Part shown: in pieces, positions 19,479 through 24,164 of the stretch | Layout: each line of letters opens with the position of its first letter | Numbering within the stretch: the first letter of the stretch is position 1 | Source of the DNA: Limnochorda sp. L945t | Lineage (GTDB): Bacteria; Bacillota; Limnochordia; Limnochordales; Geochordaceae | DNA length: 64,000 bases | Assembly: GCF_035593305.1 (NCBI RefSeq) | Contig: NZ_CP141615.1 | Coordinates: 2,511,722-2,575,721 of the forward strand | Reading direction: 5' to 3' | Program-made: the position numbers and the translations under genes | Notes under the pieces: model-generated | What the model saw: only the letters and a program-made list of their open reading frames with translations | Databases searched by the model: none | What the model was told of the DNA's origin: nothing

Positions 19479-20410
19479 GGAGCGCACCGCACGACCTTCC
19501 GGCAACGGCGACGACGAGGCCTGCCGCTCGGCGTCGGGCTGCCACGGCGGCGCCGGCGGGCGTGGGAGAGTGGACCTCGCAGGCGCTCGTGCACCTGGTC
19601 GTGGTGCTGATGGCGCTGGCGTGGGTGCTGCCCACGTTGGGGCTGTTGGTGAGCTCGCTGCGACCGGCTCCCGACGTGGCCCGCACGGGATGGTGGACCG
19701 TCTTCGCCAACCCGTTCGACCTCACGCGCTGGACGCTCGCCAACTACCGGCACGTGCTGGGGCAGCAGGGGCTGGCGCAGGCGTTCCTCAACAGCTTCAT
19801 CATCACGGTGCCGGCGACGGTGCTGCCCATCCTGGTGGCGTCGTTCGCCGCGTTCGCCTTCGCGTGGCTCGACTTCCCCGGGCGCTCGTGGCTCTTCCTG
19901 GTGGTCGTGGGGTTCCTCGTCGTGCCCCTGCAGATGACGTTCGTGCCGATCCTGAAGATCTACAGCGAGACCGGGCTCGCCGGCACGTTCGTGGGGATAT
20001 GGCTGGCGCACACGGGCTACGGGCTGCCCTTCGCCGTATACCTGATGCGCAACTTCTTCGGCTCGCTGCCGGGGGAGCTCTTCGAGTCGGCGTACATCGA
20101 CGGGGCGTCTCCGCTGTCGGCGTTCTTCCGGCTGGCACTGCCGATGTCGACCCCGGCTCTGGCGTCGCTGGCGATCTTCCAGTTTCTGTGGGTGTGGAAC
20201 GACCTGCTGGTCGCCCTCATCTACCTGGGCGGCGGCGCCCGGACCGGCCCGTTGACCCTGAAGCTGTCGAGCCTGGTCGGCAGCTACGGGCAGGAGTGGC
20301 ACGTGCTGACGGCGGCGGCCTTCATCTCCATGCTGGTCCCGGTCGCCCTCTTCTTCGCGCTCCAGCGCTACTTCGTCCGGGGCATCCTGGCCGGCGCGGT
20401 CAAGGGCTGA
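19475..20410 (+). CDS. Sugar ABC transporter permease (MalG/UgpE type)
   Basis: A 311-residue permease. After a Pro/Ala/Arg-rich cytoplasmic N-terminus of about 35 residues there are about six membrane spans. The EAA motif is ESAYIDGASPLSAFFRLALPMSTPAL. The pattern of a final short GILAGAVKG tail is standard for MalG-type permeases. ATG 19475 overlaps the upstream permease stop and follows CAGGAGGCG. It is the last gene of the importer operon, and its 3' end overlaps the convergent meaB gene by 11 bases. Confidence 0.92.
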   Translation: MRSAPHDLPATATTRPAARRRAATAAPAGVGEWTSQALVHLVVVLMALAWVLPTLGLLVSSLRPAPDVARTGWWTVFANPFDLTRWTLANYRHVLGQQGLAQAFLNSFIITVPATVLPILVASFAAFAFAWLDFPGRSWLFLVVVGFLVVPLQMTFVPILKIYSETGLAGTFVGIWLAHTGYGLPFAVYLMRNFFGSLPGELFESAYIDGASPLSAFFRLALPMSTPALASLAIFQFLWVWNDLLVALIYLGGGARTGPLTLKLSSLVGSYGQEWHVLTAAAFISMLVPVALFFALQRYFVRGILAGAVKG

Positions 20411-21443
20411 GATCCTGCCCGGAGAGGGCCTGGCGCAGGAGGAGGCCGGCGGCGTCTCGGGCCGACAGCTCGCCGTCTGCCAGGCGCCGCGCCAGGTCGG
20501 CCCAAAGCCCGCGTTGCCGGGCCGGCGCCACCACGTGGCGCTCCACCGCCGCTGCGAGGGCCGCCCGGAGCTCCCATTCGGCCCGAAGGCGGCGCCGCTG
20601 CTGGGCGGAGGGGGCCGACTCCAGATAGCGCCGGTGCGACTCCAGCGCTTCGACGAGCTGGCCCAGCCCCTCCCGGCGGGTCGAGGAGACCAGCACCACG
20701 GGAATCTGCCAGGCGCCCGTATCGGGCGGCGAGAGGTGGAGGATCCCCGCGATGGCCCGGTAGGCCTCGTGAGCGCCCGGGAGATCGGCCTTGTTGACCA
20801 CCATCACGTCGCCGATCTCGACGATGCCGGCCTTGAGCGCCTGCACCTCGTCTCCGGAGCCCGGGTTGAAGACCAGCACGACTGTGTGGGCCACGCCCAG
20901 CACGCCGACGTCGTTTTGGCCGGCGCCGACGGTTTCGACCAGGACGACGTCCATGCCGGCCGTGTCGAGCACCCGCACCATCGCGAAGACCGAGAGTGCG
21001 AGGCCCCCCTGCTGCCCGCGGCTGGCCACGCTGCGCATGAAGATCCCCGGATCGTCCACCGGCAGGCTCATTCGCAGCCGGTCGCCCAACACCGCTCCAC
21101 CGGTGAAAGGGCTCGTGGGGTCCACCGCGAGAATGCCCACCTTGCGGCCGCGCCGGCGAAGCTCCAGGGCGAGCTGGCCGATGAGGGTGCTCTTGCCAGC
21201 GCCGGGGCTGCCCGTGACGCCCACCACGTGAGCGCGCACGACCCCGGTCAACAGAGGGGCGAGTTCGTCGCAGGCGCGAGCTGCTTCCCGGCTCGTGCCG
21301 GCGACCCCGTCGTGCAGGCTCGCCTCGGCCAGGCTGAGCGCCCTGGCGAGCGCCCCCCGGTCTCCTGCCCGCACCCGGTCGGCCAGCGACACCGTCCGGG
21401 CGGCGGCACCACGTGGTTCACGCATGCCGGAGTGCTGCTGCAA
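20400..21443 (-). CDS. meaB: MeaB-type GTPase (methylmalonyl-CoA mutase chaperone family)
   Basis: A 347-residue G3E/MeaB-family GTPase. Motifs: Walker A GVTGSPGAGKSTLI, VDPTSPFTGGAVLGDRLRM (switch I), VETVGAGQNDVGV (switch III/Walker B region) and VVNKADLPGA (NKxD). MeaB guards the B12 cofactor of methylmalonyl-CoA mutase and related mutases. No mutase gene is in this window, but biotin carboxylase and carrier genes lie immediately upstream in the same direction, which hints at propionyl-CoA metabolism. The TTG at 21443 has GGGAGGCG upstream; ATG 21425 is the alternative. Its 3' end overlaps the convergent sugar permease. Confidence 0.9.
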   Translation of the reverse strand: MQQHSGMREPRGAAARTVSLADRVRAGDRGALARALSLAEASLHDGVAGTSREAARACDELAPLLTGVVRAHVVGVTGSPGAGKSTLIGQLALELRRRGRKVGILAVDPTSPFTGGAVLGDRLRMSLPVDDPGIFMRSVASRGQQGGLALSVFAMVRVLDTAGMDVVLVETVGAGQNDVGVLGVAHTVVLVFNPGSGDEVQALKAGIVEIGDVMVVNKADLPGAHEAYRAIAGILHLSPPDTGAWQIPVVLVSSTRREGLGQLVEALESHRRYLESAPSAQQRRRLRAEWELRAALAAAVERHVVAPARQRGLWADLARRLADGELSARDAAGLLLRQALSGQDLSP

Positions 21444-21513: not shown

Positions 21514-22047
21514 TCAAGACGCTCCGGCCGGCGCCCGCAGCGCCACCAGGCTCTCCCCCGTGTTGACCGTCTGCCCCACGCGGACGGCGACGTGGCTCAC
21601 CACGCCGGCTTCCGGGCTTTTCACCTCGTTTTCGAGGTTCATCGCCGACAGCACCAGCAGGAGATCCCCCTTCCCCACGGCCTGGCCGGGAGTAACGGCG
21701 ACCGACAGCACCAGGCCGGGCATCGGGGCTTTCACCACGCGGGCTCCCGCCGAGGTGCCGGCCGGCGCCGCCGGGCGGGACACGGCGGAAAGAAGGGGCG
21801 GCCAGGCCACGCCGGCCTCCGCCGGGTGGGGCCGGGGCCGGGCCGCCGTGGATCCCGGCAGGGCACCTCGCTCGTACCCTACCCGGGTGGCCGCTTCGTC
21901 GACCTGCCCGGGTACCGGATCCGCTAGCTCCTCTACCTCGACGATGTACGGCACTCCGTCCACGTGCACCCGGAAGCGCCGGCGCGACCCATGCCCCGCG
22001 CCGGGCGTCCCCCCCTCTTCCCCGTACAGAGCCGGGCTCCACGTCAC
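21514..22047 (-). CDS. Biotin/lipoyl-attachment domain protein lacking the biotin lysine
   Basis: A 177-residue protein shaped like a biotin carboxyl carrier subunit. It has an N-terminal strand pair (RRRFRVHVDGVPYIVEVEE), a Pro/Ala linker (about 85-103) and a C-terminal biotinyl domain from VVKAPMPGLVLS to the end. The biotin loop, normally AMKMENEVKSP, reads AMNLENEVKSP: Asn137 (codon AAC, 21637-21639) replaces the lysine that carries biotin. Unless this is an error, the protein cannot be biotinylated at the usual site. GTG 22047 follows GAGGGGAGG. It sits between biotin carboxylase and meaB and would partner the former in a propionyl- or acetyl-CoA carboxylase. Confidence 0.8.
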   Translation of the reverse strand: MTWSPALYGEEGGTPGAGHGSRRRFRVHVDGVPYIVEVEELADPVPGQVDEAATRVGYERGALPGSTAARPRPHPAEAGVAWPPLLSAVSRPAAPAGTSAGARVVKAPMPGLVLSVAVTPGQAVGKGDLLLVLSAMNLENEVKSPEAGVVSHVAVRVGQTVNTGESLVALRAPAGAS

Positions 22048-22105
22048 GCAGGTACGCCTCCCCTCTTGCGGTCCCGGAGGGCGCTCCGGGCGGCCCGCCG
22101 GCGTT

Positions 22106-23743
22106 TCACCGGGCCCGGTGCGCCGGCCCGTGGCCGCCCCCACCTTCCGGGTCGGGGTAAATGGCCCGGATCCTCCACCGCCGGCGGCTCCCCGCATCGC
22201 GGTCATGCGGCGCCGCTCCGGCCCTGGTCCGTGGGGCGCCCAGGTAGGCCTGGAGCGCCGCTGCCGCCGCGGCAGCCGCTTCGGGGGAAACGCCCTCCCT
22301 GCGCGCTCCCGGGGCGAGCTCGACCCGCGCTGCGGCGGCCCCCTCCCCGTTTCTCCCCGGGGCTGCCTCCCCCGGCCCCGGGCCATCGGGGGGCAGCTGG
22401 TCGGGCGTGAAGTGCTGCTCCACGAACCGGGTGGTCACTTCCCCGTCGCGAAACTCGCGGCGCCCGACCAGCCACCGGTGGAAAGGCAGCGTCGTCCGCA
22501 CCCCGTCGATCGCGAACTCCTCGAGCGCCCGGCGCGCCCTCGCCAGCGCCTCGCGCCGGGACGGTGCCCATACGACGAGCTTGGCGACCAGCGAGTCGTA
22601 GAACGGAGGGATGACCCACCCGGGGAACGCGGCCGAATCGACCCGCACGCCGGGCCCTCCCGGCGGCAGGTAAGCCTCGATGGTCCCCGGATTGGGAAGG
22701 AAGCCCCGGCGGGGGTCCTCGGCGTTGATGCGAAACTCGATGGCGTGGCCCCGCAGCACCACGTCCTCCTGCCCGAGGGGCACCGGCTGCCCGGCCGCGA
22801 GCGCCATCTGGAGCTGCACGAGGTCGGTCCCCGTTACGAGCTCCGTCACCGGGTGCTCGACCTGAATGCGGGCGTTGACCTCGATGAAGTAGAAGCGCCG
22901 TTCCTCGTCCACCAGGAACTCGGCCGTTCCGACCCCCACGTAGCCCGCCGACGCGGCGAGCCGCACCGCCGCCTCTCCCATGCGCCGCCGCAGCGTACCG
23001 TCGAGCACCGGGGACGGCGCTTCTTCTGCGAGCTTCTGGTGGCGCCGCTGGATGGAGCAGTCCCGCTCCCCGAAGTGGACGCCCTTACCGTACCGGTCGA
23101 CGGCAAACTGGATCTCGACGTGGCGCACCCGCTCCAGCCACTTCTCCAGATAGAGGGAGCCATCGCCGAACGCCTTCGCCGCCTCGGAGGAGGCCCGATC
23201 CCACGCGCTCTCCAGCGACTCCGGCCCGTCCACGCGGCGCATACCGCGGCCGCCCCCGCCCGCCACCGCCTTCAGCAGCACCGGATAACCCAGGCGCTGC
23301 GCCTCCCGCCGGGCCTCCTCGACGCCGGGCAGGGCAGCGGCGCTGCCGGGGATGGTCGGGATGCCGAGGCGCTCGGCCTGCCGGCGAGCGGCGTCCTTGT
23401 TGCCGAAGTGCGCCAGCACCTCTTCCGGCGGTCCGATGAAGGTCAGCCCGGCCTCCCGGCAGAGCCGGGCCAGCACCGGGTTTTCGGACAGGAAACCGTA
23501 ACCGGGGTGTACGGCGTCGGCCCCTGCCGAGCGGGCCGCCTCCACCACCGCCCGGGCATCCAGGTAGACCAGCGGGTCGTCCCGGACCACCACGCCATCC
23601 GCCAACCGCGCCGGGAGGCTCTCCCGATCGGGGCCGGATGCCAGCAGCACGGCCCGGATGCCGAGCTCCCGCAAGGCGCGGATAACCCGCAGGGCGATCT
23701 CTCCCCGGTTGGCCACCAGCACGCTCGAGAAGATGGGGCCCAC
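22106..23743 (-). CDS. accC: Acetyl/propionyl-CoA carboxylase, biotin carboxylase subunit
   Basis: A 545-residue biotin carboxylase, longer than the usual roughly 450. The first 450 residues are normal: VLVANRGEIALRVIRA, HPGYGFLSENP, FGNKDAARRQAERLGIP, KAVAGGGGRGMR (Gly-rich ATP loop), RDCSIQRRHQKLAEEAP, FYFIEVNARIQVEHPVTE (metal and bicarbonate site) and FRINAEDP. The last 95 or so residues are a low-complexity Gly/Ala/Pro/Arg tail with no clear fold. The enzyme carboxylates biotin with ATP and bicarbonate. The carrier-like gene follows after 58 bases. No carboxyltransferase gene is adjacent. A palindrome lies upstream at 23818. Confidence 0.93.
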   Translation of the reverse strand: MGPIFSSVLVANRGEIALRVIRALRELGIRAVLLASGPDRESLPARLADGVVVRDDPLVYLDARAVVEAARSAGADAVHPGYGFLSENPVLARLCREAGLTFIGPPEEVLAHFGNKDAARRQAERLGIPTIPGSAAALPGVEEARREAQRLGYPVLLKAVAGGGGRGMRRVDGPESLESAWDRASSEAAKAFGDGSLYLEKWLERVRHVEIQFAVDRYGKGVHFGERDCSIQRRHQKLAEEAPSPVLDGTLRRRMGEAAVRLAASAGYVGVGTAEFLVDEERRFYFIEVNARIQVEHPVTELVTGTDLVQLQMALAAGQPVPLGQEDVVLRGHAIEFRINAEDPRRGFLPNPGTIEAYLPPGGPGVRVDSAAFPGWVIPPFYDSLVAKLVVWAPSRREALARARRALEEFAIDGVRTTLPFHRWLVGRREFRDGEVTTRFVEQHFTPDQLPPDGPGPGEAAPGRNGEGAAAARVELAPGARREGVSPEAAAAAAAALQAYLGAPRTRAGAAPHDRDAGSRRRWRIRAIYPDPEGGGGHGPAHRAR

Positions 23744-23817
23744 CGCTCTTCACCTGCCTGCCGTCCGAGCACCCGCCCTCACAGGGGTTTCTCGAAGGTC
23801 GATCCCGTCGTCGAGCT

Positions 23818-23843
23818 GTCAACCAAACGGCCGGTTGGTCGAC
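23818..23843. promoter_or_regulatory. 26-base palindrome, TetR-type operator candidate upstream of accC
   Basis: The 26 bases match their own reverse complement at 22 positions. The half-sites are ACCAAACG and CGGTTGGT. On the minus strand the right part supplies TTGACA, a consensus -35 element pointing to accC. Size, symmetry and the ACCAA...TTGGT arms resemble operators of TetR/FadR-type regulators of acyl-CoA metabolism. Confidence 0.5.
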
Positions 23844-23926
23844 GGCTCCGCCACGCGCGCCACCGCTTCCGAGGCGCCGGCTAAATAATGCGAATTGCGG
23901 TTACGGTTCGCCCTCCAGTCTACCAT

Positions 23927-23989
23927 GCATCCGGCACGGCCGGAAGCGTCCCGCAGCCGCGGCCCATGCTGGCCCGGATGCGCGGGACG
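23927..23989. repeat. Two crossed 8-bp inverted repeats (pseudoknot-like topology)
   Basis: GCATCCGG (23927-23934) pairs with CCGGATGC (23974-23981), and CGTCCCGC (23947-23954) pairs with GCGGGACG (23982-23989). The four arms come in the order A-B-A'-B', so the stems cross, and A' and B' are directly adjacent. Both stems are perfect. It may be an RNA structure or a coincidence in GC-rich DNA. Confidence 0.35.
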
Positions 23990-24101
23990 GGAGCCGGGAA
24001 CCGCCGCGCCTCGCGCTGGGTGTCATTCGACCCGGACGTATGACCTCCGGAGAAAGGGTCACGGTTCTCTTGGTGCATCCCTTCACAAACGGGTATGGAT
24101 G

Positions 24102-24131
24102 GGTAGGGACAGTACCCTACCTCCTAGGGTA
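24102..24131. promoter_or_regulatory. CsoR/CstR-like operator cluster upstream of the sulfur operon
   Basis: TACCCTA-CCTCC-TAGGGTA (24113-24131) is a perfect 7-5-7 inverted repeat. GGTAGGG (24102-24108) also pairs with CCCTACC (24115-24121), so two mutually exclusive dyads are nested. TACCC...GGGTA arms are characteristic of CsoR/CstR-type repressors, some of which sense persulfides. It lies about 35 bases before the DsrE start. A close relative is present at 9659-9674. Confidence 0.5.
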
Positions 24132-24164
24132 GAGTTCCCAGGCGAGAGGTGAGGGGTGGATGCT

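Follow-up and report, generated by a model that had tools for sequence, protein, structure and literature searches.

The host is a heat-loving subsurface bacterium. The window, that is, the whole stretch of 64,000 nucleotides that was analysed, contains a minus-strand operon encoding a biotin carboxylase (BC) subunit, a homologue of biotin carriers with an asparagine at the biotin attachment position (hereafter, the Asn carrier) and MeaB. The features of this locus are as follows.

22106..23743, minus strand: BC subunit of 545 aa (Pfam N, D2 and C domains; alignment with the genome's own AccC and the BCs of relatives)
22057..22064, minus strand: ribosome-binding-like sequence AGGGGAGG, read from the sequence, 9 nt 5' of the GTG start
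21514..22047, minus strand: carrier of 177 aa with Asn at the biotinyl-Lys site (open frame with GTG start; PF00364, 58.7 bits; same protein in Bu05)
21637..21639, minus strand: codon 137, AAC (Asn), at the biotin attachment position (sequence, Bu05, alignments with 2d5d and homologues, predicted model)
21514..21744, minus strand: biotinyl domain, carrier residues 101-177 (strain comparison; predicted strands and hairpin)
20400..21443, minus strand: MeaB, chaperone GTPase of methylmalonyl-CoA mutase (TIGR00750, 287.7 bits, above cut-off; the only clear copy in the genome)
23744..24155, no strand: intergenic stretch at the position of the relatives' carboxyltransferase (gene order in relatives; sequence; genome-wide search)

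The carrier gene and its biotin attachment position

The carrier gene runs from a GTG start at 22047 to a stop codon ending at 21514. Residues 104-169 of its product match the Pfam family Biotin_lipoyl (PF00364) far above the cut-off of 22.1 bits, and the predicted model contains the strands and hairpin of the biotinyl/lipoyl fold, with residue 137 in the turn between strands 129-135 and 138-143 (pLDDT about 94); the linker is modelled with low confidence. The hairpin motif reads S-A-M-N-L-E-N-E-V-K-S-P, in which N is Asn137. In a gap-free alignment this residue pairs with the biotinyl Lys of 2d5d (EAMKMENEI), the gamma chain of methylmalonyl-CoA decarboxylase from Pyrococcus horikoshii, and it also pairs with the biotinyl Lys of the other aligned homologues.

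According to the chemistry of this family, the hairpin Lys is the only biotin site. Both strains that carry the gene have Asn137, encoded by AAC, at this position, and on its sequence the homologue is thus without the residue that defines a biotin carrier. Biotinylation takes place at one particular, conserved Lys of the carrier (PMC3199775). Lacking this Lys, the protein offers the ligase no acceptor and is predicted to be unable to shuttle carboxybiotin; we infer that it is devoid of biotin. The earlier note had suggested a non-biotinylated scaffold or regulator; a lack of biotin would follow from the missing Lys, and the scaffolding or regulatory role may or may not hold. It is very improbable that biotin is attached to another Lys and that the carrier still works. 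The window sequence does have a Lys six residues downstream of Asn137, but this Lys143 lies off the hairpin turn in the predicted model, the family chemistry allows biotin only at the hairpin Lys, and the residue is Arg in Bu05, by which Lys143 was ruled out as a replacement site.

Scanning 84,980 species genomes gave 80 related loci, and 79 of these encode Lys (26 judged by eye and the rest by sequence pattern). The exception, which is also the one close relative in the scan, is the Limnochordaceae MAG Bu05 (L049; 95% identical), which was assembled independently from the same species and has the same AAC codon. Published work assigns Bu05 and strain L945T of Carboxydochorda subterranea to one species (PMC11456536). 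All carriers found in relatives within the class have Lys. Among the 398 genomes of the phylum, the window genome alone contains the pattern AMN[LMI]ENE[VIM]; the Lys version, used as a control, is present in 10 of the 72 class genomes. Both patterns are limited to ENE-type carriers. Hence, no further Asn carriers were found in the 398 phylum genomes beyond the window genome, nor among the 80 loci beyond Bu05. Matches in plasmid records all showed less than 60% identity.

A sequencing or assembly error at one base might seem attractive, as AAC differs from a Lys codon at a single position, but the codon recurs in Bu05, which was assembled independently and shows about 6% silent divergence. This second assembly rules out the error, whose probability we consider negligible. 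As judged from the sequences, the Asn substitution is real and lineage-specific. An earlier note, made from the window alone, had proposed that Asn, encoded by AAC at 21637-21639, replaces the biotinylated Lys, and the sequence, the alignments and Bu05 confirm this. That note had also regarded Lys in relatives as reason to abandon the proposal; distant relatives do have Lys, but the sole close relative has Asn, and the substitution stands.

The genome paper on the host does not mention propionyl, methylmalonyl or biotin, and the one paper returned by a literature search for bacterial non-biotinylated carriers does not, going by its title and abstract, concern a natural loss of this Lys.

The operon and the other biotin carriers of the genome

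The corresponding operon of four genomes of a sister family (G003, G006, G009 and G011) has the gene order carboxyltransferase-BC-carrier-MeaB, and G012 has the same order as far as the contig end; the operon carrier of these relatives has Lys. The window operon consists of the BC, Asn carrier and MeaB genes, and the position of the carboxyltransferase gene is taken by 412 intergenic bases, followed by genes on the opposite strand. A genome-wide search revealed no carboxyltransferase gene of this operon at the locus and no second copy elsewhere. The neighbouring BC is intact, as the earlier note had stated: its Pfam domains are kept, and alignment showed that its catalytic motifs (ATP-grasp and biotin-carboxylase) are as well. 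The genome encodes one methylmalonyl-CoA mutase, and a second clear MeaB was not found in it; its sole clear MeaB may be what keeps the operon. Neither the loss of the carboxyltransferase nor the single clear copy of MeaB figures in the earlier note.

The Asn carrier most resembles carriers of the MmdC type. Like MmdC (the gamma chain of methylmalonyl-CoA decarboxylase) and the carrier of propionyl-CoA carboxylase (PCC) (NF047903; P. horikoshii 2d5d), it has an N-terminal strand pair, a long linker and a C-terminal biotinyl domain; its best NCBIfam and PDB matches are of this type, and its position in the operon is that seen in relatives. It differs from MmdC by the Asn in place of the biotinyl Lys, by the operon without a carboxyltransferase, and by scores below the curated equivalog cut-offs (92.4 versus 200 bits for NF047903 and 90.9 versus 199 for NF004173).

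Family searches detected five biotinyl/lipoyl domains in the genome. Two of them have the biotin Lys, AccB (EAMKLMNEI) and a carrier of 70 aa with the motif ESMKMEIPV (hereafter, the SMKM carrier); one is the Asn carrier, and the remaining two were read as lipoyl E2 and GcvH. An additional lipoyl-type domain of Bu05, ETEKVTSEV (L136, G041:C8:287071-287271), has no match in the window genome by family search.

The gene for the SMKM carrier (C1:2599477) is located 66 kb from the window operon and adjoins that of the only PCC/MCC-type carboxyltransferase of the genome (C1:2597134); the other carboxyltransferase is AccA/AccD. The SMKM cluster also holds enoyl-CoA hydratases, acyl-CoA dehydrogenases, an iron-sulphur protein and Etf-like subunits, the dehydrogenase and Etf names having been read from the sequences without a family search. 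The SMKM carrier (PRK08225/PRK05889 type) resembles the Asn carrier in its biotinyl domain (47% identity over 66 residues) and differs from it in having kept the Lys and in clustering with a second carboxyltransferase and enoyl-CoA hydratases. These results support the suggestion of the earlier note that the true carrier lies elsewhere, and the search it recommended for a second Lys carrier returned the SMKM carrier and AccB, with no further biotin-Lys carrier in the genome.

No BC gene was found in the stretch containing the SMKM cluster, and the genome has two BCs, AccC, encoded beside AccB, and the window BC. The SMKM carrier and its carboxyltransferase must therefore use a BC encoded elsewhere. 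Going by this inventory, the window BC most likely serves them, although AccC could be an alternative. The genome also encodes two members of the biotin/lipoate ligase family, so that a missing ligase is not the reason for the loss of the Lys.

Divergence between strains and families

The carrier genes of the window and Bu05 differ by 9 replacement and 8 silent changes, all but one of which lie in the first 100 residues; the biotinyl domain has one replacement and no silent change. The dN/dS of the whole carrier is 0.45. A control pair with Lys carriers (G009/G011) has a dN/dS of 0.35 in the linker and 0.11 in the domain; because the control linker is similar, 0.45 was rejected as a sign of decay for the linker. 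A neutral domain evolving at the region's mean silent rate would be expected to show about 9.5 replacements (P(<=1) about 8e-4). However, silent changes are missing as well (P about 0.02), which suggests that local divergence is low too, and the neutrality test is thus not clean; the domain evidence on selection after the loss of the Lys consists of few changes between two strains of one species. Across families, the domain is 50-57% identical to Lys carriers, compared with 53-57% for BC and 45-52% for MeaB. It thus keeps pace with both, which argues that the carrier is not an old pseudogene.

Another reading has the carrier retained without a catalytic function: as a subunit it would bind BC, with or without the SMKM carrier, and would aid assembly or limit activity. 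This would make it a bacterial analogue of the plant BADC proteins, BCCP homologues without the AMKL motif, which reportedly assist the assembly of BC with BCCP (PMC11926652). The likeness is that of a BCCP homologue without the biotin-accepting Lys in an organism that has kept true carriers, here AccB and the SMKM carrier. The intact frame and ribosome site, the single replacement in the domain against the neutral expectation, its divergence matching that of BC and MeaB, and the plant precedent all favour such a role. On the other hand, local divergence may simply be low, as silent changes are absent too, and the Asn form is limited to one species. Moreover, a plant BADC works beside the true BCCP of the same complex, while the SMKM carrier has no N-terminal part. 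Plant BADCs are part of the acetyl-CoA carboxylase of plastids, and the entire AMKL motif is missing from them, whereas here a single residue has changed in an otherwise intact motif of a protein encoded in a PCC-type operon. Because the closest relatives found are bacterial Lys carriers, an origin independent of plant BADC is assumed. We regard this role as possible, although unlikely; were the protein indeed kept for assembly, bacteria would provide a counterpart of the plant BADC subunits in much simpler surroundings.

A different prospect is that the whole BC-carrier pair is decaying, with only MeaB being needed and AccC supplying the SMKM system. The ratio of replacement to silent changes in BC is above that of the adjacent genes (10/28 versus 5/52, p = 0.04), and the BC gene of Bu05 (L049:3306-4942) lacks one base that the window BC has at nucleotide 494, which breaks the frame. 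This break, however, may be an assembly error, the catalytic motifs are intact, and the dN/dS of the BC core (0.13) is on a par with the value for the Lys-carrier control pair (0.12). Decay of the pair is, in our judgement, improbable.

Two further observations concern the neighbours of the carrier gene. The C-terminal tail of BC (window 22106-22390), about 95 residues past the BC domains, is loosely constrained (dN/dS of 0.61), and the BCs of relatives have a similar Ala-rich tail. MeaB (20400-21443) differs between the window and Bu05 by 9 replacement and 10 silent changes, compared with 5 and 52 in the adjacent genes, and its dN/dS is 0.344 versus 0.145 in the control pair.

Proposed fate of the Asn carrier

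Two fates of the Asn carrier come into question, that of a recent relic and that of a partner of BC without catalytic function. We lean towards the former, that is, a remnant of a PCC-type operon in which the Asn protein is the dead former carrier, the BC is reused by the SMKM system and MeaB is kept for the mutase. On the most parsimonious reading, an operon of the propionyl-CoA-carboxylase type would first have lost its carboxyltransferase; the carrier, released from constraint, would then have lost the biotinyl Lys and with it the ability to carry biotin or CO2. The window BC would carboxylate the biotin of the 70-aa SMKM carrier, which would hand the CO2 to the sole PCC/MCC-type carboxyltransferase 66 kb away, and MeaB would be retained for the single methylmalonyl-CoA mutase of the genome. 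The absence of the operon's carboxyltransferase and the availability of another carrier for the job probably led to retirement of the Asn carrier, and reduction of the operon would largely explain the loss of the Lys. As a relic it is probably fairly recent, and some structural role may perhaps persist. Arguing against a relic are the domain being almost unchanged between the strains and having diverged no faster than BC and MeaB across families. Both the order of events and the pairing of the window BC with the SMKM carrier are what we infer, the Asn being carried by two strains of one species.

The loss of the catalytic residue, as read from the genomes compared, is real, rare and restricted to this lineage. 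It amounts to a knockout by nature of a residue that catalysis almost universally relies on, within a reading frame that is otherwise intact. Split biotin-dependent carboxylases may swap parts, given a BC without its own carboxyltransferase and another cluster without a BC. The SMKM cluster of G006, whose operon is complete, is also without a BC, and sharing of a BC may thus predate the loss of the carboxyltransferase. In G004, the SMKM carrier adjoins a BC with 49% identity to the window BC.
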